Below, in pieces: positions 23,849 to 37,309 of a stretch of 55,521 nt of DNA. The position numbers and the translations under genes were made by a program. Under the pieces are notes generated by a model. The model was not told where the DNA came from and made no database searches. It saw only the letters and a list, made by a program, of their open reading frames with translations. This stretch comes from Magnetospirillum sp. SS-4 (lineage in GTDB: Bacteria > Pseudomonadota > Alphaproteobacteria > Rhodospirillales > Magnetospirillaceae): the NCBI RefSeq assembly GCF_902729425.1, contig NZ_CACVCH010000057.1, forward strand, positions 1-55,521. The letters run 5' to 3'. The number at the start of each line of letters is the position of its first letter. The stretch's first letter is position 1.

Positions 23849-23892
23849 TTTTCCCTCCTGATACATTGGTAATATGCTATGTCATTTCCCTC

Positions 23893-26197: not shown

Positions 26198-26815
26198 ATG
26201 ACCAAGCGCATCGAATCCAAGTTCAAGATCAACCGCCGCCTGGGCGCCAATCTGTGGGGCCGCTCCAAGAGCCCGCTGGCCCGCGGCAAGGAAAATCCTC
26301 CCGGCCAGCATGGCCAGCGCCGCAAGAAGCCGTCCGATTTCGGCACCCAGCTGATGGCTAAGCAGAAGCTGAAGGGCTATTACGGCAACATCGGCGAGAA
26401 GCAGTTCCGCCGCCTGTACGACGAGGCCGTGCGCCGCCGTGGCGACACCTCTGAGAACCTGATCGGCCTGCTGGAAAGCCGCCTGGACGCCATCGTCTTC
26501 CGCCTCAAGTTCGCCCCGACCCCGTTTGCTTCCCGGCAGTTGATCAATCACTGCCACATCCGGGTCAACGGCAAGCGCGTCAACATCGCGTCCTATCGTT
26601 GCAAGGAAGGCGACGAGGTTTCGGTGAAGCCGAAGTCCAAGGATCTCGCCCTCATCCTGGAAGCCGCCCAGTCGGGCGAGCGCGACGTTCCGGATTACCT
26701 GGAAGTCGACCATAAGGAAATGAAGGGCAAGTTCATCCGCACCCCCAAGCTGGCCGACGTGCCCTACGCGGTGCAGATGGAACCCAATCTGGTCGTCGAA
26801 TTCTATTCGCGCTAA
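26198..26815 (+). CDS. rpsD: 30S ribosomal protein S4
   Basis: A 205-aa protein, normal length. It has the N-terminal S4 domain ([38 protein letters not shown]) and the S4 RNA-binding fold ([38 protein letters not shown]), and ends VVEFYSR. S4 is a primary 16S rRNA-binding protein that nucleates 30S assembly. Its last 9 codon bases form the attachment core of the adjacent integrative elements. The stop is now TAA supplied by element DNA. The original stop was probably TAG, as preserved at 37248-37251, and its terminator now lies 10.4 kb away. Confidence 0.98.
26807..26814. repeat. Attachment-site core, left (attL), copy 1 of 3
   Basis: TCGCGCTA, the last two sense codons and first two stop bases of rpsD. 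The same octamer recurs at 32288 and 37243. The extended match to the middle copy is TTCGCGCTAACAC. Confidence 0.85.
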
Positions 26816-26864
26816 CACGTATGACCAATTCCTGCGGCGACGCAGGGTTTGGAACGTGACGAAG

Positions 26865-26899
26865 AAGCTGTTCAGCACAAGGTGTTGGGCAGCTTTTTT
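26865..26899 (+). terminator. Element-borne intrinsic terminator just downstream of rpsD
   Basis: Stem arms AAGCTG (26865-26870) and CAGCTT (26890-26895) with inner pairing GCAC/GTGT, followed by a run of six Ts. It is 50 bp after the rpsD stop and replaces the native terminator displaced to 37282. The same structure is at 32346 in element 2. Confidence 0.75.
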
Positions 26900-26916
26900 G
26901 TTGGGCGGACGACACG

Positions 26917-27375
26917 ATGCAGAACGCACTGAATGCAAGGATACTGATTATTGACGACAACGTTGCGGAAGCGACGCTGACAAAACTGACGCTACAGGCA
27001 GGCAAGATTGGCTGTAGCATTGAGCACGTGACAAACGGCTATATGGGCATTGACAGGCTGAAGGAAGCTAAGCGGACAGAGCGCCCATACCATATCGTAA
27101 TACTAGACGTGCAAATGCCCGGAATTAGTGGCTGTGAGACGCTTGAGATAATACGGAAAACAGACGAGATTGCGGACACTTACGTGGCGATTTTAACGAG
27201 CTTGAAGTGTAAGACAGACTGCCCGCGCGATTTATTTTTGTGTCACGAAAAAAAAGCTGACATATACTTGCATAAAGAAACGACACTTGAAGACTTTGAG
27301 GCAGAACTTATACAGCTAAAGGCTGACTACGAAAATCAGAAGGAAGTCATTAGCATTAACACTAAAGATATATAG
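26917..27375 (+). CDS. Stand-alone receiver (CheY-like) protein, cargo of element 1
   Basis: A 152-aa single receiver domain without an output domain. All phosphorylation residues are present: Asp13-Asp14 in ILIIDDN, phosphoacceptor Asp64 in VILDVQMPGISG, Thr94 in AILTS and Lys120 in YLHKE. A 25-residue tail follows. It should accept phosphate from a histidine kinase or phosphotransfer protein of the host, but no partner is encoded on the element. It occupies the slot between the terminator and the integrase, where element 2 has an unrelated-looking receiver gene. Codon use is unlike the host. Confidence 0.85.
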   Translation: MQNALNARILIIDDNVAEATLTKLTLQAGKIGCSIEHVTNGYMGIDRLKEAKRTERPYHIVILDVQMPGISGCETLEIIRKTDEIADTYVAILTSLKCKTDCPRDLFLCHEKKADIYLHKETTLEDFEAELIQLKADYENQKEVISINTKDI

Positions 27376-27395
27376 GTTACTATTTAGGACAGCAA

Positions 27396-27442
27396 GACGC
27401 TATACTAACACATAGCTAACACGCACTTTTGAAGGTGCAGCT
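27396..27442 (+). promoter_or_regulatory. Integrase leader: promoter and repeated CTAACAC sites
   Basis: This block is identical in both elements (32920-32966 in element 2). It carries TATACT (27401-27406) as a good -10 with only a weak -35, then two close copies of CTAACAC and a small hairpin with arms GCAC and GTGC around the ribosome site. The same CTAACAC follows the att core at 26812 and 32293. The repeats may be arm-type binding sites for the recombinase. That function is inferred. Confidence 0.45.
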
Positions 27443-28660
27443 ATGGACGTTGGACAGCGTGAAATTGAACTGCGTGGCGGACGAATTGTGCTGTACACGC
27501 GGGCAGATGACAGACACGGGATTTGGCAGGCGCGGTTTAGGCTGGGCACGGATCGCACGCTGGTTAGGCGCAGCACGAAGACGACGGACTTGGCGGAGGC
27601 GAAACGGACGGCGGAAGAGCTGTACGAGGAGCTGCGCTACAAGCAGCGCAACAATCATCCCCTGAAAGACCAGACCTTTAAGCTGCTTGCGGACGACTTT
27701 GTGCGGAAAACGGCGCGGGAGACGCTGGAAGGACGGCTGAGCAAGGGACGGCTGGTGCTGATTGAGGGCACGCTGAGGCGGTACTTGCTCCCATTTTTCG
27801 GCAAGCGACCGATTAACAGCATAACGACGGCGGATTTCAACGAGTACGACGAATGGCGGCTGGACTATTGGACACGGGGCTATGGCGCGGACAAGGTGGT
27901 GGCAACAGCGGCGGCAGTTCCATCCCCAAAAACGCTGGTGATGGAACAGAGCATCTTGCGGCAGATTTTGAAGCACGGGCTGGAGCAAGGTAGCTTGAAG
28001 CAGCTTGCGTTTATGCGGGCGAAACGGGCGAAGACGAACAGGCGCGGCGCATTTGACGTGAAGGAGTACAGGCTGTTGGTGCGGACGGCACGGCAGCGCA
28101 GCAACGAGGCTGAACACCCACGTGTAAAACGGGACAGGCAGCTTTTGGAACTGTACGTGCGCTTGCTGGTGGGCACGGGCATGAGGGTTGGCGAGGCACG
28201 TGGGCTGACATGGCGCGACGTTGAACTGATCCACACGGGCAACGGCAAGCTGACGGAGACGCTGCGGCTTTGGGTGGATGGCAAGACGGGCAAGCGGGCG
28301 GTGATTGGGACACGGGCGGCGAAGAACACGCTGAAGAAGCTATTGGCGCACTATGGCTGGAAGGACTTGGACGAAGCACGGGCGAACGGCAACGGGCTAT
28401 TTAGGAACAGCAAGGGCGAGGACATTGGCACGTTTGAGGTGGGCTTTGGCAAGCTGATGGAAGCAGCGGGCTTGGACAAGGACAGGCACGGCAACGCGAG
28501 GACGCTGTACAGCTTACGGCACACATACGCTACTTTTAGGCTACTGTACGGCGGCACGGACGTTTACTTGCTGGCGCGGAACATGGGCACGAGCGTGAAC
28601 ATGATTGAACAGCATTACGGGCACGTGAGCACGACGCTGGCGGCGGACAAGCTGATTTGA
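27443..28660 (+). CDS. int: Tyrosine recombinase (integrase) of element 1
   Basis: A 405-aa phage-type integrase. The N-terminal part (1-70) has an arm/AP2-like segment (GIWQARFRLGTDRTLVRRS). The core-binding domain is at about 75-200. The catalytic domain (205-405) has Arg248 in GTGMRVGEARGL, a box II of YSLRHTYAT (Arg359, His360; the first His of the usual HxLR is Tyr356) and the nucleophile Tyr392 in MIEQHYGHV. It differs from the element 2 copy at only 9 of 405 positions. It should catalyse site-specific integration at the TCGCGCTA core in rpsD. Its last 24 bp recur at 29238, where a cargo gene has been inserted. Confidence 0.95.
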   Translation: MDVGQREIELRGGRIVLYTRADDRHGIWQARFRLGTDRTLVRRSTKTTDLAEAKRTAEELYEELRYKQRNNHPLKDQTFKLLADDFVRKTARETLEGRLSKGRLVLIEGTLRRYLLPFFGKRPINSITTADFNEYDEWRLDYWTRGYGADKVVATAAAVPSPKTLVMEQSILRQILKHGLEQGSLKQLAFMRAKRAKTNRRGAFDVKEYRLLVRTARQRSNEAEHPRVKRDRQLLELYVRLLVGTGMRVGEARGLTWRDVELIHTGNGKLTETLRLWVDGKTGKRAVIGTRAAKNTLKKLLAHYGWKDLDEARANGNGLFRNSKGEDIGTFEVGFGKLMEAAGLDKDRHGNARTLYSLRHTYATFRLLYGGTDVYLLARNMGTSVNMIEQHYGHVSTTLAADKLI

Positions 28661-28663
28661 CGG
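28640..28663. repeat. 24-bp direct repeat at the integrase 3' end, left copy
   Basis: The end of the integrase gene, including its TGA, is repeated perfectly at 29238-29261. The pair brackets the extra receiver gene. Element 2 has only one copy, at the end of its integrase. Confidence 0.85.
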
Positions 28664-28807
28664 AGCGCGGCGGCTTGACGCACGAGAGGCTAAAACTATT
28701 GGATAGGTCTGTAACGCAATAGCATAGCTGGTAAGCGAAAAGCTTTATGCTGATAGACTTTTGGGGCATACGTAACGGTGAAAACACGTATGGCAAAGGT
28801 TGGGACA

Positions 28808-29230
28808 ATGACGCGGGCGTTGAGTTTTTTCATCATTGATGAAAGCAAAGCGAACATAGCGCTTATAACGGCTGCGCTTCATAAGCAAAACTACGACTGC
28901 GAAGTTCTATCTGAAAGCAATGTAGATTCGGCACTTGCACGGCTGATGGAGCTGAACAGAAACGACAAAAATTCTCTTCCAAATGTTATTCTGATTGGGC
29001 GGCTTGATAGCGATCTAAACGCAATTGGTGTGCTGTGCTATTTGAGCACTGCGAAAATTTCTGAGCATTCGGTGGCTGTGGTTATATGCGGGCATACGGA
29101 CTACAACGACAAGGCGCTGTACCTGAACAACGGCGCTGAGCACGTGATTGCGTGGCATTTTGATTGCAAGGAGCTTGAGGATGGGCTGCGCATTTTTGAG
29201 GAATACGCGGAGGAAATGGCTGCACAGTAG
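28808..29230 (+). CDS. Degenerate receiver-like protein, extra cargo of element 1
   Basis: A 140-aa protein from the ATG at 28808, which has AAAGG 8 nt upstream (28778 and 28790 are alternatives). It has the alternating strand-helix pattern of a receiver domain: ALSFFIIDESKAN, NVILIGRLDSDLNAIG and VAVVICGHTDYNDK, ending GAEHVIAWHFDCKELEDGL. The phosphoacceptor position is Gly64, the Thr/Ser position is Cys94 and the conserved Lys is Trp116. It therefore should not be phosphorylated in the normal way. It may be a pseudo-receiver that binds partners constitutively. It sits between 24-bp direct repeats and is absent from element 2. Confidence 0.75.
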   Translation: MTRALSFFIIDESKANIALITAALHKQNYDCEVLSESNVDSALARLMELNRNDKNSLPNVILIGRLDSDLNAIGVLCYLSTAKISEHSVAVVICGHTDYNDKALYLNNGAEHVIAWHFDCKELEDGLRIFEEYAEEMAAQ

Positions 29231-29237
29231 AAAATCT

Positions 29238-29261
29238 GCGGCGGACAAGCTGATTTGACGG
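29238..29261. repeat. 24-bp direct repeat of the integrase 3' end, right copy
   Basis: A perfect copy of 28640-28663. From here onward the sequence again matches the region that directly follows the integrase in element 2. Confidence 0.85.
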
Positions 29262-29272
29262 GCAAATCAGCG

Positions 29273-29291
29273 AACATACTTGATGTATGTT
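29273..29291. repeat. AACATAC hairpin, copy 1 of 4
   Basis: Perfect inverted repeat with AACATAC and GTATGTT arms and loop TTGAT. Other copies are at 31363, 34199 and 36296, two per element, always followed by GG. The stem-loop reads ACTTGATG across the 5' stem end and loop, resembling the CTTG-ATA nick core of pC194/phiX174-type Rep proteins. It is a possible origin or protein-binding site. Confidence 0.6.
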
Positions 29292-29352
29292 GGAGGCAAA
29301 TGGCGGCCGGATTTTTTGAGCAGATCGGCGACGACGCTGCATAAATAGTGGC

Positions 29353-29607
29353 ATGAAGGCACGAGAGATATTGGACGCTGACGCTTGGCTGGCGCGGAAG
29401 AAGGAACGCAGGGGCGAGACGATTAGCGATGAACGACGGCAATTGATGGCAATGATCTACAGCGACACGACGCTGGAACGGGAACAGCTTGAGCTTGAAC
29501 GGGCGAGATTGGAGCTTGGGCAGATAAAGGCTGAGATAATGAAAACAAAGGCGGAGGCAGTCAAAGACACAGCCCAAGCAAAATACAGTTGCAGGAAAAG
29601 TTACTAA
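29353..29607 (+). CDS. Highly charged coiled-coil protein, 84 aa (element 1)
   Basis: Starts MKAREILDADAWLARKKERR. A long helix follows (LEREQLELERARLELGQIK) with heptad spacing typical of a coiled coil. Residues 1-60 are almost identical to the element 2 protein at 34278, and the last 20 residues diverge completely. No clear Shine-Dalgarno precedes the ATG. Instead TTGAGC and CATAAA lie just upstream, which could give a leaderless mRNA. I do not recognise the family. It may act in replication or copy control, judging only from its place beside the iterons and rep. Confidence 0.7.
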   Translation: MKAREILDADAWLARKKERRGETISDERRQLMAMIYSDTTLEREQLELERARLELGQIKAEIMKTKAEAVKDTAQAKYSCRKSY

Positions 29608-29733
29608 ACTTAAATACTTTCATTTATCATTTTATACTTGAAAACAGCTATTTTACTTGGTTTTTTTGAAGCTAACTTGGGCAGGTGAAATTCTACAGTT
29701 TGTATAATATAGTTACCAACTATTCTTCATCAT

Positions 29734-29845
29734 CCATAATCACCAAATTCCATAATCACCAAATTCCATAATCACCAAATTCCATAATCAATAAATTCCA
29801 CATCCATCATCGTCCACAGTCGTAAAACTCCATAGTCACTAAATT
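29734..29845. repeat. Iteron-like tandem repeats downstream of rep (element 1)
   Basis: Three perfect head-to-tail 16-bp units CCATAATCACCAAATT start at 29734, 29750 and 29766. A variant follows at 29782-29797 and another, spaced, at 29830-29845. They lie in an AT-rich non-coding stretch of about 300 bp between two convergent genes. Such iterons commonly mark replication origins or partition sites. Element 2 lacks them. Confidence 0.75.
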
Positions 29846-29910
29846 CAAAGACCTTAACACCGTTACAGCAATCAGATTGGATAATAGTTTAATAGTCAGG
29901 CGTAGCCTGA

Positions 29911-30798
29911 TTACGTATATCGTCTTGTTTTCAGCCCCTGAAATCCGTTGCAACTCTCCACAGCCATAACAACTGACTTGGCGATAATCGGACTATATAA
30001 AGTTGAATATTGAGTGCGAGTGAATTGTTTTGAATTATCGTCGCTTGCGACGCTGACCGAATGCTGCAATCTGAACTTAAGCATATAGGTAGCTATATCG
30101 TGTAAATTGTCCGTGTGCGACTTGTCGTCACGCAACTTGGTAAAATCCACTTGATAGCTATTTTGGTATATTTTTCGCAGTTCGCCCTCTATGTCGTACT
30201 TTTCATTTTTGAACTTCGGCATACATATAACAGCATGAAAATGAAGAAGAAAACTTGGCGATTTTTTATCTTTGTCGTAGCCGAGTGCCGAAAGCGTATT
30301 CACTTTTCGGTCGGATAGTTTCTCATCAGCAGCAATCGCGTGAATTTCATAAGCGCCCAAAAGTCTGATGTTTTCATCAGCGAAGAGCTGAAGTTTGTCC
30401 AAATCATTATCAAGCTTCTTTTTCAATTTCTTAATAAGCGTCAGATTTATGTCCGCTGAATTGTAGTGGACCTCGTGCAGAATTGTAAGGAAGCGCAGCT
30501 TGTCAGCATCCACGTTGCCAAAATTTTCAATCATACTTTGAGCAAATAACTCTTGCTGGGCATGACGACATTTAGGACAGAACGGATTATTGCAAGGGTG
30601 GCGTCCTGTGCAATTTAGTATTCTCAAAGCAAGTGTTGTGGCTTTTTTATCGGAAAAATCTGTACACAAATTTTCAACCACATATTTCCGTTGACGTATT
30701 TTGCCTTCAGCGTAGTCACCAATTTTTTCTGTGTATCTGTATTTCTGTTCAAATGCAGACTGATTTTGAATTTCAGCGATGGTAAATTTCTTTGTCAT
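29911..30798 (-). CDS. rep: HUH-type rolling-circle Rep protein (element 1)
   Basis: A 295-aa protein from the ATG at 30798, which overlaps the stop of the small upstream ORF (ATGA). A zinc-finger-like cluster has Cys63, Cys69, Cys74 and Cys77 (CNNPFCPKCRHAQQ). Rep motif 1 is LRFLTILHEVHYN (102-113), motif 2 is LLHFHAVI with His186 and His188, and motif 3 is ATYMLKF with Tyr238 and Lys241. This layout fits the Rep_1 (pC194/pUB110-like) family, which nicks one strand at a double-strand origin to start rolling-circle replication. It is only about 40 percent similar by eye to the element 2 Rep. A hairpin with arms TCAGGC/GCCTGA lies right after its stop. Confidence 0.85.
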   Translation of the reverse strand: MTKKFTIAEIQNQSAFEQKYRYTEKIGDYAEGKIRQRKYVVENLCTDFSDKKATTLALRILNCTGRHPCNNPFCPKCRHAQQELFAQSMIENFGNVDADKLRFLTILHEVHYNSADINLTLIKKLKKKLDNDLDKLQLFADENIRLLGAYEIHAIAADEKLSDRKVNTLSALGYDKDKKSPSFLLHFHAVICMPKFKNEKYDIEGELRKIYQNSYQVDFTKLRDDKSHTDNLHDIATYMLKFRLQHSVSVASDDNSKQFTRTQYSTLYSPIIAKSVVMAVESCNGFQGLKTRRYT

Positions 30799-30911
30799 TT
30801 TACGGTCTTCTTTGAACAACACACGGTCAACATGATTGCATAGATGGCGAGCACTTCAATACTTGCCATCTTTCCATTAAATCCATATTCAACTAATTTT
30901 TCTCGCTCCAT
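30795..30911 (-). CDS. Conserved 38-aa small ORF ahead of rep (element 1)
   Basis: ATG at 30911 with GGAGA 6 nt upstream. The stop TGA overlaps the rep ATG, so translation of rep is probably coupled to it. The translation begins MEREKLVEYGFNGKMASIEV, continues LAIYAIMLTVCC and ends KKTVK. Element 2 has a 38-aa ORF of exactly the same length at the same place. They share 14 of 38 positions without gaps (the GF.G and LA.YAI..T..C pattern), although the DNA differs. Conservation of length and pattern argues for a real gene: a leader peptide or a small membrane-associated regulator. Confidence 0.7.
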   Translation of the reverse strand: MEREKLVEYGFNGKMASIEVLAIYAIMLTVCCSKKTVK

Positions 30912-30939
30912 TGTCTATCTCCATAAATAACAGCGCTAC

Positions 30940-31009
30940 ATGCGCAGCGGTATTTATGACGGACGACGATAAATATTGATGGGAAACTCAAAATATCTTT
31001 GGAGACATT
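30940..31009. promoter_or_regulatory. Conserved divergent control region between rep operon and the 92-aa gene
   Basis: Almost identical to 35811-35880 in element 2, although the rep genes beside it differ. It includes GCGC-tacat-GCGC symmetry and ATTTAT (11 nt) ATAAAT inverted arms, then TTGGAGACATT as the ribosome site of the 92-aa gene. It is a likely common operator/promoter region for both directions. Confidence 0.55.
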
Positions 31010-31288
31010 ATGAACGCATTACAACACGCATATATTACCTTAAAATCCAACGACTTAACTGATGGACAGTACGATTTTAGCAGGAAGTGGCTGGGACGTG
31101 ACAGGAGCTATTACGGAAGCATGAAGGCGAGGCAGCGGCAAGCTGGACTGCGGACAATGCTGGCACTTGCGGGCAATCTGACGAAGGCGCTGGTTCGGGC
31201 GAAGGCTGAACGGCGTGGCAATGACGCGGCGGTGCTGGAGAAACTGAGTGGTCGCATTTGGGACGGCGTGATGGCTGGACGGGCTTGA
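31010..31288 (+). CDS. Small conserved protein, 92 aa (DUF6626-like), element 1
   Basis: Basic, helical protein: MNALQHAYITLKSNDLTDGQ, YDFSRKWLGRDRSYYGSMKA, then LAGNLTKALVRAKAERRG. It has a good GGAG ribosome site. It is identical in amino-acid sequence to the copy at 35881 in element 2. From memory it resembles the DUF6626 family of alphaproteobacteria, which has no known function. The WLGRDRSYYGSMKAR segment looks like a short DNA-binding helix-turn-helix, so a regulator of the divergent rep operon is plausible. That role is inferred. Confidence 0.75.
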   Translation: MNALQHAYITLKSNDLTDGQYDFSRKWLGRDRSYYGSMKARQRQAGLRTMLALAGNLTKALVRAKAERRGNDAAVLEKLSGRIWDGVMAGRA

Positions 31289-31723
31289 ACAGCTCGGCGG
31301 CCACGCGGATCAACTTGTCGTGTAACACGACAACTTCGGTGGGCTTGAACAGCACGGCAGCGAACATACTTGCTGTATGTTGGTGCGGATCGGTGCGGAC
31401 ACGGCGGAAACGCAATTGCACTGCCCTACTCCATTTTTCCCAACGCGCATTGCGTCGGAAACGCACACTACAGCAGCAAAGCAACTTTGGGAGCTACCTA
31501 CACACAGCGCAGTGCAAAACTGCGCTGTGTGACGACGAGCGGAGCTTGGCGGTTGAATTTGAGCTGCACCGAGCACCGAAAACGCAGTCAGGTTTAGTAC
31601 ACATACATTATATGAAAATGCGCTGCATAGGACAATGATTACAGCAACTTACAGATATATCGGTCACTGATGCACTGACATAGACATTACTGTACTGCAA
31701 GCGAACGACTTGGAGTACAGGAC
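31289..31723. other. Structured, conserved non-coding region (element 1)
   Basis: No convincing ORF over 435 bp, yet the right-hand 380 bp is nearly identical in element 2 (36270-36656). It contains a near-perfect palindrome TTGTCGTGT-A-ACACGACAA (31315-31333), an AACATAC hairpin (31363-31381) and a long 12-bp hairpin (31501-31531). The phrase GGGCTTGAACAGC is repeated on both sides of the first palindrome. Candidates are an origin of replication (single- or double-strand), an ncRNA, or both. Confidence 0.6.
31501..31531. repeat. Perfect 12-bp-arm hairpin, element 1 copy
   Basis: Arms CACACAGCGCAG (31501-31512) and CTGCGCTGTGTG (31520-31531) with loop TGCAAAA. It has no T-run, so it is not a standard terminator. 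The identical structure is at 36434-36464. Confidence 0.8.
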
Positions 31724-32167
31724 ATGACTGCATTGGCGAAATTGAAGCTGACGACTGCGACGCGCAAAACGGAGAAGCTGAGCGCGGAACAGTACACGCG
31801 ACAGCGCATGCTGGCGAACTTGGCGGAACAGCTTGGCATGGCGCGGGCGATGCTGGATGGCTCGGCCTTCACTGTTAAGCAGACGCGATACAAGACGGAC
31901 GAGAACGGCGAGCGCATTGGGTACGAGCGCAGCAAGCGGCTGCGTCAGTGGTTCTGGCAGGATGCTGACGGCAACTGGCTGTTGGAACTGCGCTACGGGA
32001 ACAAGCTTCTGAAGCTGAGCGGCGACAGCACGGCGGTGCTGGTGGGCAAGCTGGAGCAGCTTGCGGGCGTGATCGAGACGCTGATCGAGGCTGTGGCGGC
32101 GGGCGAACTGGACAAGGCGCTGGCGGCGGCGAAGAAGGAGCGCATGGCAACGCTGCGGAAGGGCTGA
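31724..32167 (+). CDS. Conserved protein, 147 aa (DUF6641-like), element 1
   Basis: Starts MTALAKLKLTTATRKTEKLS after a GGAG site. It has a helical N-terminus (RQRMLANLAEQLGMARAMLD), a central strand-rich part (RLRQWFWQDADGNWLLELRY) and a C-terminal helical pair (LEQLAGVIETLIEAVAAGEL) ending in lysines. The element 2 copy differs at about a dozen positions. From memory this is the DUF6641 family seen in Rhodospirillales, with no known function. It is the last gene before the att core in both elements, a usual place for an integration-associated or DNA-binding protein. Confidence 0.75.
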   Translation: MTALAKLKLTTATRKTEKLSAEQYTRQRMLANLAEQLGMARAMLDGSAFTVKQTRYKTDENGERIGYERSKRLRQWFWQDADGNWLLELRYGNKLLKLSGDSTAVLVGKLEQLAGVIETLIEAVAAGELDKALAAAKKERMATLRKG

Positions 32168-32287
32168 CGATGCAAAGGTGGTAGATTGCGACTATGCTTT
32201 TGGGGTATAACAGGTATGAAGCTGACAGCATTTTAATGCGCAAAAAACGCAATACATCCAATGCATTACTCGCATTAGATGTATAAT

Positions 32288-32295
32288 TCGCGCTA
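32288..32295. repeat. Attachment-site core, middle, copy 2 of 3
   Basis: TCGCGCTA at the junction of the two elements. The left side (GTATAAT) matches the right end of element 2 and the right side (ACAC) matches the left end of element 1, as expected for tandem integration. Confidence 0.85.
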
Positions 32296-32345
32296 ACACA
32301 CATCACCAAATTCTGCGGTAACGCAGGGTTTGGAACGTGACGAAG

Positions 32346-32380
32346 AAGCTGCTCGGCACAAGGTGTTGGGCAGCTTTTTT
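32346..32380 (+). terminator. Element-borne intrinsic terminator at the left end of element 2
   Basis: Arms AAGCTGC (32346-32352) and GCAGCTT (32370-32376), then a T-run. Equivalent to 26865-26899. Confidence 0.75.
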
Positions 32381-32402
32381 GTTGGCTGGGGGGAGGCTGA
32401 AA

Positions 32403-32849
32403 ATGGCGCGAGAAGCGGAGGTGCTATTTGTTGAAGATAGCGAGTGTTACGCGCATCTTTTTGAAATTATTGTTGGTCAGATTGAATATAAATGCAGATT
32501 AGACAAAGCTGTTAATGGCGCAGAGGCAATAAGGAAATTAAAGGAGCGCTTTGAAAGCGAGGACACCTTTTACGACGTTGTTATCACAGACTTACATATG
32601 AACTTTATTAATGGCATTGAGCTTACAAAATACATACGATCGCTTTACGCAAATATGAATATCCCAATTGTTGTTATGTCATCGCAGGACGCAAGCGAAG
32701 TTGGCATGTTGGCGCACGATGCTGGCGCGAACCGCTTTATACAAAAACCGGCACATATTGACGAGCTATTCCAAGCCATTACCAATGTCATATCTGATTT
32801 TATAGTTAAAATTGGACATGACATTGAGCGACGAAAAGTTGACAATTAG
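32403..32849 (+). CDS. Stand-alone receiver (CheY-like) protein, cargo of element 2
   Basis: 148 aa from the ATG at 32403, which has GGAGG 6 nt upstream. A GTG at 32337 lies before the terminator hairpin and is unlikely. It is a single receiver domain with all key residues: Glu11-Asp12 in VLFVEDS, Asp63 in VVITDLHMN, Ser93 in VVMSSQD and Lys115 in RFIQKPAHI. It has no output domain. It holds the same slot as the receiver gene of element 1 but the sequences are only distantly alike, so the cargo has been exchanged. The codons are AT-rich, even compared with the neighbouring integrase. Confidence 0.85.
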   Translation: MAREAEVLFVEDSECYAHLFEIIVGQIEYKCRLDKAVNGAEAIRKLKERFESEDTFYDVVITDLHMNFINGIELTKYIRSLYANMNIPIVVMSSQDASEVGMLAHDAGANRFIQKPAHIDELFQAITNVISDFIVKIGHDIERRKVDN

Positions 32850-32966
32850 CACAATAGCTTGGAATGACTGTATTAATAGTGAATACCATTACTATTGCTG
32901 GGAGAATTTCTGAAATTTAGACGCTATACTAACACATAGCTAACACGCACTTTTGAAGGTGCAGCT

Positions 32967-34184
32967 ATGGACGTTGGACAGCGTGAAATTGAACTGCGTG
33001 GCGGACGGATTGTACTGTACACGCGGGCTGATGACAGACACGGCATATGGCAGGCGCGGTTTAGGCTGGGCACTGAACGGACGCTGGTTAGGCGCAGCAC
33101 GAAGACGACGGACTTGGCGGAGGCGAAGCGGACAGCGGAGGAGCTGTACGAGGAACTGCGCTATAAGCAGCGGAACAATCACCCCCTGAAAGATCAAACG
33201 TTTAAGCAGCTTGCGGAGGACTTTGTCAGAAAGTCGGCGCGAGACACGCTGGAAGGACGCTTGAGCAAGGGCAGATTGGTGCTGATTGAGGGCACGCTGA
33301 GGCGGTACTTGCTCCCATTTTTCGGCAAGCGACCGATTAACAGCATAACGACGGCGGATTTCAACGAGTACGACGAATGGCGGCTGGACTATTGGACGCG
33401 GGGCTACGGTGCGGACAAGGTGGTTGCAACATCGGCGGCAGTGCCCTCGGCGAAAACGCTGGTGATGGAACAGAGCATATTGCGGCAGATTTTGAAGCAC
33501 GGGCTGGAGCAAGGCAGCTTGAAGCAGCTTGCGTTTATGCGGGCGAAACGGGCGAAGACGAACAGGCGCGGCGCATTTGACGTGAAGGAGTACAGGCTGT
33601 TGGTGCGGACAGCACGGCAGCGCAGCAACCAGGCGGAACATCCACGTGTGAAGCGAGACAGGCAGCTTTTGGAGCTGTACGTGCGCTTGCTGGTGGGCAC
33701 GGGCATGAGGGTTGGCGAGGCACGCGGGCTGACATGGCGCGACGTTGAACTGATCCACACGGGCAACGGCAAGCTGACGGAGACGCTGCGGCTTTGGGTG
33801 GATGGCAAGACGGGCAAGCGGGCGGTGATTGGGACACGGGCGGCGAAGAACACGCTGAAGAAGCTGTTGGCGCATTACGGCTGGAAGGATTTGGACGAGG
33901 CACGGGCGAACGGCAACGGGCTATTTAGGAACAGCAAGGGCGAGGACATTGGCACGTTTGAGGTGGGCTTTGGCAAGCTGATGGAAGCAGCGGGCTTGGA
34001 CAAGGACAGGCACGGCAACGCGAGGACGCTGTACAGCTTGCGGCACACATATGCCACTTTTAGGCTACTGTACGGCGGCACGGACATTTACTTGCTGGCG
34101 CGGAACATGGGCACGAGCGTGAACATGATTGAACAGCATTACGGGCACGTGAGCACGACGCTGGCGGCTGACAAGCTGATTTGA
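32967..34184 (+). CDS. int: Tyrosine recombinase (integrase) of element 2
   Basis: A 405-aa protein, near-identical to the element 1 integrase. Differences by eye are conservative (for example Asp37 to Glu, Thr90 to Ser, Val374 to Ile). The catalytic Arg248, RHT at 359-361 and Tyr392 are unchanged. Both integrases should therefore recognise the same core and could excise either or both elements. The leader sequence is the same as in element 1. Confidence 0.95.
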   Translation: MDVGQREIELRGGRIVLYTRADDRHGIWQARFRLGTERTLVRRSTKTTDLAEAKRTAEELYEELRYKQRNNHPLKDQTFKQLAEDFVRKSARDTLEGRLSKGRLVLIEGTLRRYLLPFFGKRPINSITTADFNEYDEWRLDYWTRGYGADKVVATSAAVPSAKTLVMEQSILRQILKHGLEQGSLKQLAFMRAKRAKTNRRGAFDVKEYRLLVRTARQRSNQAEHPRVKRDRQLLELYVRLLVGTGMRVGEARGLTWRDVELIHTGNGKLTETLRLWVDGKTGKRAVIGTRAAKNTLKKLLAHYGWKDLDEARANGNGLFRNSKGEDIGTFEVGFGKLMEAAGLDKDRHGNARTLYSLRHTYATFRLLYGGTDIYLLARNMGTSVNMIEQHYGHVSTTLAADKLI

Positions 34185-34198
34185 CGGGCAGATTGACG

Positions 34199-34217
34199 AA
34201 CATACTTGATGTATGTT
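34199..34217. repeat. AACATAC hairpin, copy 3 of 4 (element 2)
   Basis: Arms AACATAC and GTATGTT with loop TTGAT, 15 bp after the integrase stop. The same arrangement follows the right 24-bp repeat in element 1. Confidence 0.6.
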
Positions 34218-34277
34218 GGCGGCAATGGCGGCCGGATTTTTTGAGCAGATTGGCGACCACGCTGCATAAATAGTGGC

Positions 34278-34538
34278 ATGAAGGCGCGAGAGATATTGGA
34301 CGCTGACGCTTGGCTGGCGCGGAAGAAGGAGCGCAGGGGCGAGACGATTAGCGACGAGCGACGGCAATTGATGGCAATGATTTACAGCGACGCGACGCTG
34401 GAACGGGAACAGCTTGAGCTTGAACGGGCGCGATTGGAGCTTGGACAGATAAAGGCTGACATAATAAAAGCAAAGGCAGTGGCAGCGAAAAATAACGCTG
34501 AAGCAAATGAAACTGAAATGTCTGCGAAGCACTTTTGA
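34278..34538 (+). CDS. Highly charged coiled-coil protein, 86 aa (element 2)
   Basis: Residues 1-60 match the element 1 protein at 29353 with one or two changes (MIYSDATLEREQLELERARL). The tail is different (AVAAKNNAEANETEMSAKHF). The point of divergence marks the left border of the exchanged replication module. No Shine-Dalgarno is visible. The same CATAAAT hexamer region lies just upstream of the ATG. Confidence 0.7.
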   Translation: MKAREILDADAWLARKKERRGETISDERRQLMAMIYSDATLEREQLELERARLELGQIKADIIKAKAVAAKNNAEANETEMSAKHF

Positions 34539-34782
34539 AGATGCTGCAAATTTTACTGACAGTAAAAACACAATATAGCAAATACTATACTGAACGGCGC
34601 GGAAACATTGGACTTTTTGACGCAGGTAATTTTGGAGCACTGACTATAGTTTGTATTAAGTTATATAGTACTTACCTTAATCAATTCAAAATTACAAACA
34701 TCAATCTCATATCAACAAAGTCAAACACAAACTCTAAACCACAATCAAAGACCTTAACTCGTTTCTAAACACGATATTGGTA
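34539..34782. other. AT-rich non-coding stretch downstream of rep (element 2)
   Basis: Very AT-rich and unlike the matching region of element 1, with no iterons. One 14-bp phrase, TCAAAGACCTTAAC (34745-34758), is shared exactly with element 1 (29845-29858). In both it lies within about 50 bp of the rep stop codon. It may be a functional site of the replication module. Confidence 0.5.
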
Positions 34783-35655
34783 TTAGACATTGTAGCTAAA
34801 TGAAAGACCGTTGAACTTTTTACATGAATTGACTGACATGACGACAGCTTTAGCTATCGGAATTTCATAGAGACTTGCATAGCACGTACGCTTGTACATT
34901 TGATTTTGATCATCTTCAAATTTGAGACGCTGACTATGCTGCAAGCGGAACTTGAGCATATAGGTAGCAAGCGTTTCTAAATTTTTATCTTGTGATTTAT
35001 CGGAGTGCAGATGCTGAAGCAGTACTTGATACTTATGCGGGAAATGAGCGGAGCTTTTGAGCATAGATAGCAGTTTAGATTCTGACAGCGACCCGAGATT
35101 TACAACTGCATGAAAATGCAGAAGAAAAAACGGCAGATTACTACTTTCTACGAGCCCGAGAGGCTTTAGAGAAAGAAGCTTGCGGTCGCTGAGAATTGCA
35201 TTAGCAGCGAACGCTTCAATTTCAAAACTCCCGAGCAATTGCACGGAAGTGCCATTGTTTTTGTTGATGACATTGAGGGCATTGCGAACGGAACGCTTAA
35301 CACGTTTGACAAGCGTGCTGCTGATTGACGCTGCATCATAGTGCACGCTGTGCAGGAAGGTGAGAAAGCGCAACTGGCTTGCGGGCACGTGGCTGAACGC
35401 GGCGAGCATTTTGTCCGCGAACTTGCGCTGCTGATTATGGCGGCACATGGGGCAAAATGGCTGCTTGCAGGGCTTATGGGTTGAGCAGTGCATGAGGCGA
35501 TGGGCAAGCGCGGTTGCGTCTTTATCGGCAAGATCGCTGCACAGGGCATTGATGACGTAGGCACGCTGGCGGATTTTGCTGACAGCGTGGTCACCGATTT
35601 TTTCCTTAAATCGGTACTCTAAATCGGCGGCGCTGACGTTTTTGAGGGCGGACAT
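34783..35655 (-). CDS. rep: HUH-type rolling-circle Rep protein (element 2)
   Basis: A 290-aa protein with the same motif order as the element 1 Rep. The Cys cluster is Cys57, Cys63, Cys68 and Cys71 (CKQPFCPMCRHNQQ). Motif 1 is LRFLTFLHSVHYD (95-107). The HUH motif is LLHFHAVV (His180, His182). Tyr232 and Lys235 lie in TYMLKFRLQHS. Between motifs the two Reps differ widely, whereas the integrases hardly differ. The replication module has therefore been swapped by recombination. It follows the 38-aa ORF, whose stop is 9 nt upstream. Confidence 0.85.
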   Translation of the reverse strand: MSALKNVSAADLEYRFKEKIGDHAVSKIRQRAYVINALCSDLADKDATALAHRLMHCSTHKPCKQPFCPMCRHNQQRKFADKMLAAFSHVPASQLRFLTFLHSVHYDAASISSTLVKRVKRSVRNALNVINKNNGTSVQLLGSFEIEAFAANAILSDRKLLSLKPLGLVESSNLPFFLLHFHAVVNLGSLSESKLLSMLKSSAHFPHKYQVLLQHLHSDKSQDKNLETLATYMLKFRLQHSQRLKFEDDQNQMYKRTCYASLYEIPIAKAVVMSVNSCKKFNGLSFSYNV

Positions 35656-35664
35656 GGCGGCGAG

Positions 35665-35781
35665 CTATTTGAGGCGGGACGCGGCACAGCGCAGCGTGGC
35701 GCGGATAGCATAGAGGGCGAGCTGATTAATGCAAACAAGCTCCCCACGAAATCCCACTGAGACGTAATGATTGGACGACAT
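35665..35781 (-). CDS. Conserved 38-aa small ORF ahead of rep (element 2)
   Basis: ATG at 35781 with GGGAGA 7 nt upstream. The translation begins MSSNHYVSVGFRGELVCINQ, continues LALYAIRATLRC and ends AASRLK. It is the same length as the element 1 ORF and aligns without gaps (GF.G, I..LA.YAI..T..C). A longer frame to 35862 exists, but its extension has no good ribosome site. The stop TAG lies 9 nt before the rep ATG. Confidence 0.65.
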   Translation of the reverse strand: MSSNHYVSVGFRGELVCINQLALYAIRATLRCAASRLK

Positions 35782-35880
35782 TTTATTTCTCCCAAATTGA
35801 ACTGCGCTACATGCGCAGCGGTATTTATGACGGACGACGATAAATATTGATGGGAAACTCAAAATATTTTTGGAGACATT

Positions 35881-36159
35881 ATGAACGCACTACAACACGC
35901 ATATATTACCTTAAAATCCAACGACTTAACTGATGGACAGTACGATTTTAGCAGGAAGTGGCTGGGACGTGACAGGAGCTATTACGGAAGCATGAAGGCG
36001 AGGCAGCGGCAAGCTGGACTGCGGACAATGCTGGCGCTTGCTGGCAATCTGACGAAGGCGCTGGTTCGGGCGAAGGCTGAGCGGCGCGGCAATGACGCGG
36101 CGGTGCTGGAGAAACTGAGCGGGCGCATTTGGGACGGCGTGATGGCTGGACGGGCTTGA
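35881..36159 (+). CDS. Small conserved protein, 92 aa (DUF6626-like), element 2
   Basis: Amino-acid sequence identical to the protein at 31010, with only silent DNA changes. The upstream region is also conserved, including the TTGGAGACATT ribosome site. Complete protein identity beside a strongly diverged Rep suggests strong selection or recent recombination. Confidence 0.75.
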   Translation: MNALQHAYITLKSNDLTDGQYDFSRKWLGRDRSYYGSMKARQRQAGLRTMLALAGNLTKALVRAKAERRGNDAAVLEKLSGRIWDGVMAGRA

Positions 36160-36656
36160 ACAGCTCGGACGACAACAAGCAATACGGATATGTCCAAAGT
36201 TTGAACGCGGAGTGCTTGGACCTAAAATTGTAGCGCATTGCGACAACGTGTCGTGTAACACGACAACTTCGGTGGGCTTGAACAGCTCGGCGGCGAACAT
36301 ACATGCTGTATGTTGGCGCGGATCGGCGCGGGCGTGGCTGAAGCGCAATTGCACTGCCCTACTCCATTTTTCCCAACGCGCATTGCGTCGGAAACGCATG
36401 CTACAGCGGCAAAGCAACTTTGGGAGCTACCTACACACAGCGCAGTGCAAAACTGCGCTGTGTGACGACGAGCGGAGCTTGTCGGTTGAATTTTAGCTAC
36501 ACCGAGCACCGAAAACGCAGTCAGGTTTAGTACACTTACATTATATGAAAATGCGCTGCATAGGACAATGATTACAGCAACTTACAGATATATCGGTCAC
36601 TGATGCACTGACATAGACATTACTGTACTGCGAGCGAACGACTTGGAGTACAGGAC
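36160..36656. other. Structured, conserved non-coding region (element 2)
   Basis: Matches 31289-31723 from about 36270 onward. The left part has an extra stretch of about 60 bp (36170-36240) not found in element 1, lying between ACGACAAC direct repeats. Features are a palindrome TGTCGTGT-A-ACACGACA (36249-36265), an AACATAC hairpin with loop ATGCT (36296-36314) and the 12-bp-arm hairpin (36434-36464). Confidence 0.6.
36434..36464. repeat. Perfect 12-bp-arm hairpin, element 2 copy
   Basis: Arms at 36434-36445 and 36453-36464 with the same loop TGCAAAA as in element 1. No base differs between the two copies. Confidence 0.8.
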
Positions 36657-37100
36657 ATGACTGCATTGGCAAAATTGAAGTTGACGACTGCGACGCGCAA
36701 AAATGAGAAGCTGAGCGCGGAACAGTACACGCGACAGCGCATGCTGGCGAACTTGGCGGAACAGCTTGGTATGGCGCGGGCGATGCTGGATGGCACTGCG
36801 TTTACGGTGAAGCAGACGCGATACAGGACGGACGAGAACGGCGAGCGCATTGGGTACGAGCGCAGCAAGCGGCTGCGTCAATGGTTCTGGCAAGATGCTG
36901 ACGGCAACTGGCTGTTGGAACTGCGCTACGGGAACAAGCTTCTGAAGCTGAACGGCGACAACACTGCGGTGGTGGTGGGCAAGCTGGAGCAGCTGACCAG
37001 CGTGATTGAGACGCTGATGGAGGCAGTGACGGCGGGCGAACTGGACAAGGCGCTGGCGGCAGCGAAGAAGGAGCGCATGGCAACGCTGCGGAAGAGCTGA
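36657..37100 (+). CDS. Conserved protein, 147 aa (DUF6641-like), element 2
   Basis: Same length and fold pattern as the protein at 31724. Changes cluster in the C-terminal helices (LTSVIETLMEAVTAGELD). It has the same GGAG leader. Last gene before attR. Confidence 0.75.
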   Translation: MTALAKLKLTTATRKNEKLSAEQYTRQRMLANLAEQLGMARAMLDGTAFTVKQTRYRTDENGERIGYERSKRLRQWFWQDADGNWLLELRYGNKLLKLNGDNTAVVVGKLEQLTSVIETLMEAVTAGELDKALAAAKKERMATLRKS

Positions 37101-37242
37101 CGGCAACATGCGTCACAATATGGCTATATCCGAAGGTATATTTTTGAAGACCTTTTGGTGTATAACAGGCATATGGCTGACAGCTTTTTAAGGCGCAAAA
37201 ACCACAGCAATAACAATGCAATGCTCGCATTAGCTGTATAAC

Positions 37243-37250
37243 TCGCGCTA
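37243..37250. repeat. Attachment-site core, right (attR), copy 3 of 3
   Basis: TCGCGCTA followed by GGCTCTGG. This keeps the original rpsD end with a TAG stop (37249-37251) and then the native rpsD terminator, so it marks the chromosome junction. Confidence 0.85.
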
Positions 37251-37281
37251 GGCTCTGGGTCGAAAGTTCCAGCCAAGATCG

Positions 37282-37309
37282 ACGCGCCGCCGCAAGGTGG
37301 CGCGTTTTT
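37282..37309 (+). terminator. Original rpsD terminator, displaced 10.4 kb
   Basis: Ten-base-pair GC stem (ACGCGCCGCC with GGTGGCGCGT) closed by a GCAA tetraloop and followed by five Ts. It now lies between attR and rarA with no gene reading into it from the chromosome. Confidence 0.85.

Follow-up and report, generated by a model that had tools for sequence, protein, structure and literature searches.

The sequence behind rpsD, the gene for 30S ribosomal protein S4, in Magnetospirillum sp. SS-4 raises the question of what the two lower-G+C blocks that follow this gene are, and how they came to lie there. The stretch analysed (hereafter the window) comprises the 55,521 nucleotides of contig NZ_CACVCH010000057.1. 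Within it, positions 26807-37250 consist of two integrated elements of 5481 and 4955 bases, arranged in direct tandem at the 3' end of rpsD. Taken as a whole, the data are best explained by two related compact integrative elements stacked at the rpsD 3' end and carrying response regulator receivers as cargo, a reading that we consider likely. The initial annotation had already described a tandem array of two compact integrative elements with receiver cargo and without detected conjugation or virion genes, and this description holds for the open reading frames (ORFs) of the array, 13 of which were assigned and 10 scanned, the remaining three being near-copies. The features that define the site are the following.

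26198..26815, plus strand: rpsD, the target of the integration, encoding 30S ribosomal protein S4; 205 aa, with 88-96% identity in 16 same-genus relatives
26807..26814, plus strand: att copy 1 (attL), TCGCGCTA, the rpsD end; the following ACAC is supplied by the element
26858..26902, plus strand: element-borne replacement terminator for rpsD in the left unit; 21-bp hairpin running into a T tract, -28.5 kcal/mol, z -6.6
32288..32295, plus strand: att copy 2, the inter-element junction, where an element right end is joined to an element left end
32339..32383, plus strand: terminator of the right element, of the same design; -30.2 kcal/mol, z -6.35
37243..37250, plus strand: att copy 3 (attR)
37281..37306, plus strand: intrinsic terminator behind the array

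The three TCGCGCTA copies, at 26807, 32288 and 37243 and all on the plus strand, bracket the two blocks at the positions and with the lengths initially proposed, and the G+C content in 500-base windows is 0.35-0.62 inside the array versus 0.62-0.71 outside. Taken alone, this octamer is not significant: at least three copies occurred in 21 of 100 shuffles of the window, and the whole genome counts 49 of them. Since the bare octamer thus provides no evidence, the extended att context was used instead. Indeed, the 100 bases starting just before att copies 1 and 2 are 91% identical, and the left-end block of the window units also opens the units found in relatives. The left flanks of att copies 2 and 3, which are the element right ends, are likewise of the same sequence type.

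As had been claimed, the left copy is the real end of rpsD, corresponding to its last codons and stop. The units display an integrase inside, direct att repeats at both ends and a rebuilt target gene end, as is characteristic of site-specific integrative elements. For both element terminators, none of 200 shuffles gave an equally good structure, and the terminator stretch was seen in 8 of 9 aligned unit left ends, the ninth row being incomplete. Since each unit brings its own terminator, the element presumably replaces that of the essential gene and shields itself from rpsD transcription. An intrinsic terminator is present after the right copy, and we take it, in line with the initial annotation, as the displaced native terminator of rpsD. 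The integrase would join a circle att, composed of the element right end, TCGCGCTAACAC and the element left end, to the rpsD end; integration would rebuild the gene end and supply the terminator, a product that can be read directly in the sequence, and arrays would grow by accretion at an existing att. Sequences resembling the junction of such a circle were seen only inside the arrays and in a relic on contig C18 of the same genome, described below. As a separate observation, one extra att base in the relative G010 (L032:6440-6480) shifts the rpsD frame, so that S4 would exchange its last residues for a tail encoded by the element; this base is either a real change or a sequencing error.

To what extent this site is occupied in relatives was assessed at 30 rpsD loci, taken from a search in which 56 of 60 genomes gave an rpsD match, by reading the 75-95 bases after the stop codon. 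Six loci are occupied (SS-4, designated G000, and G001, G008, G009, G010 and G017) and 24 are unoccupied, with their own G+C-rich hairpin, recognised by eye, within this distance after the stop. The closest relatives according to rpsD (G007, G011 and G014) all have unoccupied ends. Two further carriers, G041 from another genus and G075 from another family, were read as regions, which brings the genomes with related units behind rpsD to seven besides SS-4. Altogether, 14 units were counted: two each in G000, G001, G008 and G009 (the latter cut by contig ends), three in G010, and one each in G041, G017 and G075. Since the single-contig genomes G008 and G010 have arrays of two and three units, respectively, the arrays are not artefacts of short contigs. 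Among 199 genomes searched with the integrase, 32 gave a match at E <= 1e-30 and 7 a match of at least 70% identity; in all 7 a copy lies in an array behind rpsD, and one G009 copy sits on a 3.9-kb contig without rpsD. The lower matches show 28-40% identity, and two of them, G017 and the left unit of G001, also lie directly behind rpsD.

The units have moved horizontally between genera. In the comparison of G041 with G009, rpsD (200 codons) has a synonymous divergence (dS) of 0.50 and 81.3% nucleotide identity, with corresponding values of 0.07 and 98.4% for the integrase pair and of 0 and 99.8% for a receiver pair of the RR1 group introduced below. Similarly, the receivers located behind the integrases of G041 and G001 are 99.3% identical at the nucleotide level and rpsD has a dS of 0.55. 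Near-identical integrase and receiver genes beside rpsD genes with a dS of about 0.5 show horizontal transfer, and together with the 24 unoccupied loci they give the distribution expected of an integrative element. A fixed island without empty sites, or an att core not shared by other copies, had been named initially as the outcome that would speak against the idea; instead, close relatives have empty ends and the att core is common to the copies. The neighbourhood of rpsD varies between genomes, which indicates that the target is the gene end itself. For instance, the kinase-like gene located left of rpsD in the window (23866-26007) was considered as a partner and rejected, with only three matches of 25-33% among 36 other rpsD loci or regions of 31 genomes. 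Among the same 36 loci or regions, mostly with 1.5-kb flanks, rarA was never found; since it is the right-hand neighbour only here, the rpsD-rarA interval, initially suggested as a search handle, would have missed the relatives.

The units share the order att, terminator, receiver, tyrosine integrase, K84, Rep (on the opposite strand), DUF6626, DUF6641-like and att. The initial claim of the same gene order in both blocks thus stands overall, except that the left unit has a second, extra receiver (28778-29230) between the integrase and K84. The integrases and their candidate sites are the following.

27405..27425, plus strand: two CTAACACRYA repeats just before the left integrase gene, a motif also found at the att copy (26812); candidate arm sites for the integrase
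27443..28660, plus strand: tyrosine integrase of the left element, 405 aa; PF00589 3.9e-9, phrog_1 4.7e-33
32929..32949, plus strand: two CTAACACRYA repeats before the right integrase gene
32967..34184, plus strand: tyrosine integrase of the right element, 405 aa; shares 98% identity with the left integrase

The CTAACACRYA motif occurs six times in the window against 0.06 expected, and all occurrences are within the two units: one per left-end att and two before each integrase gene. In related units, it is found at the att and usually once before the integrase gene. This arrangement suggests that the repeats could be bound by the integrase. Their absence from G017 counts against this assignment, as the candidate sites are not general. 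On plasmid records, two integrase relatives were found, both of 31% identity.

The most unusual components are the receivers, which occupy two slots: slot 1 before the integrase gene and slot 2 between this gene and K84.

26917..27375, plus strand: slot 1 receiver of the left element, RR1 group, single-domain response regulator; PF00072 5e-13
28778..29230, plus strand: slot 2 receiver of the left element, RR2 group, conserved pseudo-receiver; PF00072 0.0037, below the cut-off
32337..32849, plus strand: slot 1 receiver of the right element, RR3 group; PF00072 1.3e-18; the frame runs through the terminator and the likely start is the ATG at 32403

Nineteen receivers were found in the 14 units, 13 of which have at least one; the unit of G075 carries an unrelated 75-aa ORF in slot 1 and no receiver. 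They fall into about four groups with a between-group identity of 11-35%. The RR1 group comprises eight genes, 74-99% alike and located in slot 1, in which the acid pair, the phospho-Asp, the Thr and the Lys are all present by eye. The same inspection shows the usual acid pair, Asp, Thr/Ser and Lys in RR3 and in a group that we take to be Rcp1-like. The three RR2 genes, 64-72% alike and each located after the integrase gene, all have, by eye, Gly at the phospho-Asp position, Cys at the Thr/Ser position and Trp at the Lys position. For seven of the eight RR1 genes (one G009 copy, G009a, being left out), the ratio of nonsynonymous to synonymous divergence (dN/dS) is 0.125-0.342 in 20 of 21 pairs, and the remaining pair has no synonymous change. 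Two RR2 pairs, both of high dS, give ratios of 0.09 and 0.12, and the third pair is not computable. Judging from these ratios, RR1 and RR2 both look to be under purifying selection, though RR2 has lost the phosphorylation site.

Among the 199 genomes, RR2 was matched in three at E <= 1e-12, always inside an rpsD unit. RR1 was matched in at least nine at E <= 1e-15, seven of these at 55% identity or more, and RR3 in at least two at E <= 1e-20; at most 19 (RR1) and 18 (RR3) candidates per genome were scored in these searches, so weak relatives may be missed. Some RR1 relatives lie outside the rpsD units. In G008, a relative of 74% identity is placed behind a GAF/PAS histidine kinase and a methyl-accepting chemotaxis protein (MCP) gene, in a stretch with its own integrase and DUF6641 genes. 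In G050, a relative of 55% identity adjoins GGDEF/EAL, REC-GGDEF and MCP genes. The occurrence of different groups in one slot, the purifying selection, the absence of a receiver from G075 and the proximity of relatives to chemoreceptors and kinases suggest that the receivers could be cargo acting on the host. Their most probable role would be to feed into phosphorelays or into chemosensory or cyclic-di-GMP circuits of the host, as additional phosphate acceptors or as competitors, and the pseudo-receiver RR2 would be a phosphorylation-independent binding partner. Two points weigh against this function: a partner kinase was not identified for the window receivers, and the placement of slot 1 directly before the integrase gene could mean that receivers serve the element itself. 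An exclusion between units based on their receivers was also considered, and it is contradicted by G009 and G010, each of which has two units with RR1.

The main rival to a cargo role is that the receivers are control parts of the element, sensing host phosphorylation and setting integrase or Rep activity, so that excision would occur when the host pathway is active. Such a role fits the presence of a receiver in 13 of the 14 units, the position of slot 1 in the window, the retention by eye of the RR1 phosphorylation residues, the CTAACAC repeats between receiver and integrase gene, and the promoter-like matches at the receiver's end (20 such matches against 10 expected). On the other hand, G075 has integrase, DUF6626 and DUF6641-like genes without a receiver, and none of the receivers has a DNA-binding domain. 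Furthermore, slot 1 receivers of different groups, only about 20-30% alike, occur in units with integrases that are 87-98% alike, which would be odd for a dedicated control part. We therefore regard a control role as doubtful. Receivers are generally investigated as chromosomal components paired with a fixed kinase; in the present case, they move between genera on small elements that bring no kinase along. If these cargo receivers act on host circuits, they would offer a single-step route for change of a signalling network and a natural test of network insulation, and units of about 5 kb are small enough for whole-unit testing in a laboratory alphaproteobacterium. Tentatively, and with less confidence than for the stacked elements themselves, we propose a minimal mobile family whose main recognisable cargo would be orphan receivers, including a conserved pseudo-receiver, gathered and stacked at rpsD, and in which these interchangeable parts, supplied horizontally, could rewire chemotaxis and phosphorelays of the host and array collapse could yield multi-receiver units.

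The gene on the opposite strand encodes a putative replication protein, present in two variants.

29911..30822, minus strand: HUH-like Rep, variant A, 303 aa; HFH/Tyr alignment, with the fold evidence coming from the variant B model
34783..35655, minus strand: variant B of the HUH-like Rep, 290 aa; 45% identity with variant A; modelled

The protein has a Cys cluster, and H180 F181 H182 and Y232 are invariant in eight aligned rows, which gives the HxH plus Tyr pattern; the HFH and Tyr residues are presumably the catalytic ones, judging by eye. The AlphaFold2 model of variant B (pLDDT 77) yields 11 fold matches among predicted viral proteins at E <= 0.001, the best at 2.5e-5, and the four named matches among the top 50 are all microviral replication proteins. 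The best support for a replication role comes from G075, in which the place of this protein is taken by an unrelated HUH-type Rep of the same mechanism, REP_ORF2-G2P (PF23343, 5.6e-8, over the cut-off); its neighbours there are a same-type integrase (71%), a DUF6641-like protein (54%) and a DUF6626 protein. The excised circle would be copied by rolling circle through the HUH-like Rep, from a site among the palindromes and hairpins listed here.

29273..29291, plus strand: palindrome AACATACTTGATGTATGTT, candidate Rep site; in its own genome confined to the two units, apart from one copy on contig C18
31363..31381, plus strand: second AACATAC..GTATGTT palindrome copy of the left element
34199..34217, plus strand: AACATAC..GTATGTT palindrome of the right element
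36296..36314, plus strand: second AACATAC..GTATGTT palindrome copy of the right element
31317..31331, plus strand: palindrome GTCGTGTAACACGAC of the left element; two places in the window, 0 expected
36250..36264, plus strand: palindrome GTCGTGTAACACGAC of the right element
31501..31531, plus strand: strong 13-bp hairpin of the left element, candidate replication origin, in a conserved non-coding stretch; z -4.6
36434..36464, plus strand: strong hairpin of the right element; z -5.3

When up to one mismatch is allowed, AACATACNTGNTGTATGTT occurs at five places in the whole SS-4 genome; the two units account for four of them and contig C18 for the fifth. In relatives, the AACATAC palindrome is present twice in several units and once in G041. 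The 13-bp hairpin lies between the DUF6626 and DUF6641-like genes. All these palindromes and hairpins are candidate origins. Several results weigh against the assignment of Rep and its sites. Pfam gives weak matches only, the best in the zinc-finger region and no curated one over the cut-off; the fold search of the model against the PDB gave no match at E <= 0.001; and the viral fold matches have low query-normalised TM-scores (about 0.25-0.57), most of them being unnamed proteins. The G009 assembly, in which contig ends truncate both units, yielded no Rep, and plasmids, phages and viral contigs gave no Rep relative. An exact AACATAC palindrome is lacking in G017, G075, the right unit of G008 and the left unit of G001.

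Of the 199 relatives, 9 gave a Rep match, three of these being distant ones, as did 2 of 385 genomes drawn from the class; SS-4 is counted in both cases. A scan of GTDB 220 (84,980 species genomes) returned two records only, Terasakiella sp. PR1 and an uncultured Rhodospirillaceae metagenome-assembled genome. We also considered an exclusion by Rep type, as the co-resident Reps are 41, 45 and 53% identical in the three arrays with two whole Reps; these three pairs prove nothing, because just 7 of 33 cross-genome pairs reach 68%.

Among the 10 scanned ORFs, there were no conjugation pore or coupling genes, as in an integrative and conjugative element, no virion, packaging or capsid-hijack genes, as in a prophage, an inovirus or a phage-inducible chromosomal island (PICI), no match to relaxase models and no known anti-phage defence genes according to defence models; the Rfam scan gave no match either. 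Since no transfer gene was detected, transfer would depend on borrowed machinery, namely a conjugative pore, a phage capsid or DNA uptake, and the HUH-like Rep could substitute for a relaxase in mobilization. A different possibility is that the elements are virus satellites, whose circle, once excised, would be copied as single-stranded DNA and then packaged by an inovirus- or microvirus-type helper phage. The microviral replication proteins among the Rep fold matches, the REP_ORF2-G2P protein of G075, the small size, the tandem arrays and the excess of G over C on the plus strand across most of the array all agree with it. Against it, no virion or packaging gene was recognised, no relative was found in viral contigs or phage records at the sensitivity used, and HUH-type Reps are equally common to plasmids, which makes a satellite nature unlikely.

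The relationship between the two units is uneven. Left and right proteins are 98% identical for the integrase, 100% for DUF6626 and 93% for the DUF6641-like protein, with values of 45% for Rep and about 20% for the first receivers. A plain duplication of the first unit by homologous recombination would account for the first two of these values, but the integrase pair has a dS of 0.21, the Reps and slot 1 receivers are far too different, and the arrays of G008 and G001 join even more different units, so that this explanation is largely refuted and very improbable. The dS of the integrases and the low identity of the Reps indicate stacked related units with exchanged modules rather than a fresh duplication. 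An old immobile island inherited with rpsD, which would agree with the same target in all carriers read, is refuted by the unoccupied ends of G007, G011 and G014 and by the near-identical genes in different genera, and retains hardly any credibility.

The initial annotation had matched the array to no known element class, a claim that is not supported. Integrative and mobilizable elements (IMEs) that have one tyrosine integrase and occupy the 3' end of a ribosomal protein gene are described; Rep_Trans proteins are listed for some of them, and they often stand in tandem through accretion (PMC5704250). An instance is IMESag-rpsI of about 9 kb (PMC5090054). Furthermore, rpsD is an island target in Streptococcus agalactiae, at its 3' end for SagCI (PMC4129442, PMC7487436). 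Since ribosomal gene 3' ends, rpsD included, are known targets in streptococci, the rpsD target is not new. In their described features, the window elements resemble IMESag-rpsI and IME_Sga2069_rpmE in the tyrosine integrase, the fixed target at a ribosomal gene 3' end, a probable Rep (listed as Rep_Trans for these two IMEs), the small size and the tandem accretion of IMEs. Compared with IMESag-rpsI, they are smaller (about 5 kb versus about 9 kb), reside in alphaproteobacterial hosts, carry receivers and have no recognised relaxase. With SagCI, PICI1 and PICI2 of S. agalactiae, they share the target gene, the 3' end being stated for SagCI (PMC4129442, PMC7487436). Unlike the window elements, PICI1 and PICI2 are about 15 kb long with a DNA primase and typical PICI features.

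Strand-biased circularizing integrative elements (SEs) are similarly integrative and without known mobilization genes. They are characterised by intA, tfp, intB and srap, their median size is 15.7 kb, and their tfp-srap block was found only in Gammaproteobacteria. The intA-tfp-intB operon and srap are absent from the window units, which have one integrase each with a receiver before it. Actinomycete integrative and conjugative elements (AICEs) such as pSAM2 combine an integrase with a Rep of the rolling-circle replication type, integrate site-specifically, use a double-strand DNA translocase for transfer and target tRNA genes. The window elements share with them the integrase, a putative Rep of rolling-circle type and the site-specific integration, but have no detected gene for a double-strand DNA translocase and target rpsD rather than a tRNA gene. 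Among the matches listed, the open-access literature contains no description of this element family or of elements with orphan-receiver cargo. Collectively, the target, the layout and the stacking are known, and the receiver cargo and the small size are unusual: the elements are real and, judged by the near-identical genes in different genera, mobile, follow an ordinary logic and would work like a minimal integrating rolling-circle plasmid or an IME.

Apparent larger integrative elements of the same hosts, on contig C18 of SS-4 and in G008 (C1, about 4053-4072 kb), combine an integrase, DUF6641 and a short recombinase, and they resemble the rpsD elements in their integrases and DUF6641 genes. 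The C18 integrases match the rpsD-type integrase profile at E ~1e-44, and the integrase of the G008 stretch has 31% identity. C18 also has DUF6626 genes, and the G008 stretch has kinase, MCP and receiver genes. Unlike in the rpsD elements, the DUF6641 genes of C18 are 16-19 kb apart, the sites are other ones, and clamp-loader-like and MmeI-like genes are present; a Rep of the window type was not found among the ORFs of the C18 and G008 elements. In full, C18 (L102, L103, L104) has DUF6641 genes at 4.9, 23.5 and 39.4 kb, together with three related integrases and two DUF6626 genes. It also encodes short recombinases, an MmeI-like restriction enzyme and a clamp-loader-like ATPase, and signalling genes were recognised there by eye. 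It is apparently another array of larger integrative elements. C18 holds the relic of an rpsD-type junction (L103:4179-5046), composed of a DUF6641-like end, the att variant TTTTGCGCTAACAC, a terminator and an RR3-type receiver, with 80.6% nucleotide identity over 797 columns to the window junction region. The relic is located between an integrase gene and a DUF6641 gene of another kind.

The remaining genes of the two units encode small conserved proteins.

29353..29607, plus strand: K84, conserved protein of the left element, 84 aa
34278..34538, plus strand: K84 of the right element, 86 aa
31010..31288, plus strand: DUF6626 protein of the left element, 92 aa; PF20331 8.4e-11, helix-turn-helix-like by eye
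35881..36159, plus strand: DUF6626 protein of the right element
31724..32167, plus strand: DUF6641-like protein of the left element, 147 aa; PF20346 3.4e-4, 21.1 of 27 bits, below the cut-off
36657..37100, plus strand: DUF6641-like protein of the right element

On these sequence grounds, the DUF6626 protein is a candidate regulator. The model of the DUF6641-like protein (pLDDT 85) has no PDB match at E <= 0.001. DUF6641 genes were also seen near and facing integrases of other types, in G010 (C1, 3439-3441 kb), G009 (C74), G003 (C70), G002 (C65) and G014 (C68), which suggests that DUF6641 proteins are general partners of these integrases. A possible more distant relative of the element is present in G141, which belongs to a different family of the order: a stretch of 7.2 kb (L082:5161-12367) has genes for an integrase, a distant Rep (E 4e-24), a DUF6626 protein and a DUF6641-like protein.

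A 24-nt direct repeat flanks the second receiver of the left element.

28640..28663, plus strand: repeat copy 1, the end of the integrase gene, left of the second receiver
29238..29261, plus strand: repeat copy 2, a copy of the integrase gene 3' end, right of the second receiver

Behind RR2, the integrase gene 3' end recurs over 24 nt in SS-4 and over 32 nt, with an exact match, in the left unit of G001 (L034, at about 7676 and 8297), and the integrases of these two units differ; in G008, no such repeat of at least 12 nt was found. The copy could result from a nested cassette insertion or be the remnant of a second integrase gene after array collapse. A remnant is favoured by the situation in SS-4, where the palindrome stretch follows the second copy just as it follows the integrase gene in units that have no second receiver. 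Reduced units were seen elsewhere: the second and third units of G010 (L032:12494-15499) have lost Rep but keep their receivers, and in both a truncated integrase gene is fused with the DUF6641-like gene. Finally, a protein of about 190-200 aa with the tyrosine-integrase catalytic domain only recurs in these elements; two copies were checked with Pfam and the rest are alike at their start by eye.

L034:8965-9537, L080:3728-4333, L102:679-1245 and 11578-12144: short recombinase copies
L103:11324-11890, L082:8335-8922, L123:1354-1932: further short recombinase copies

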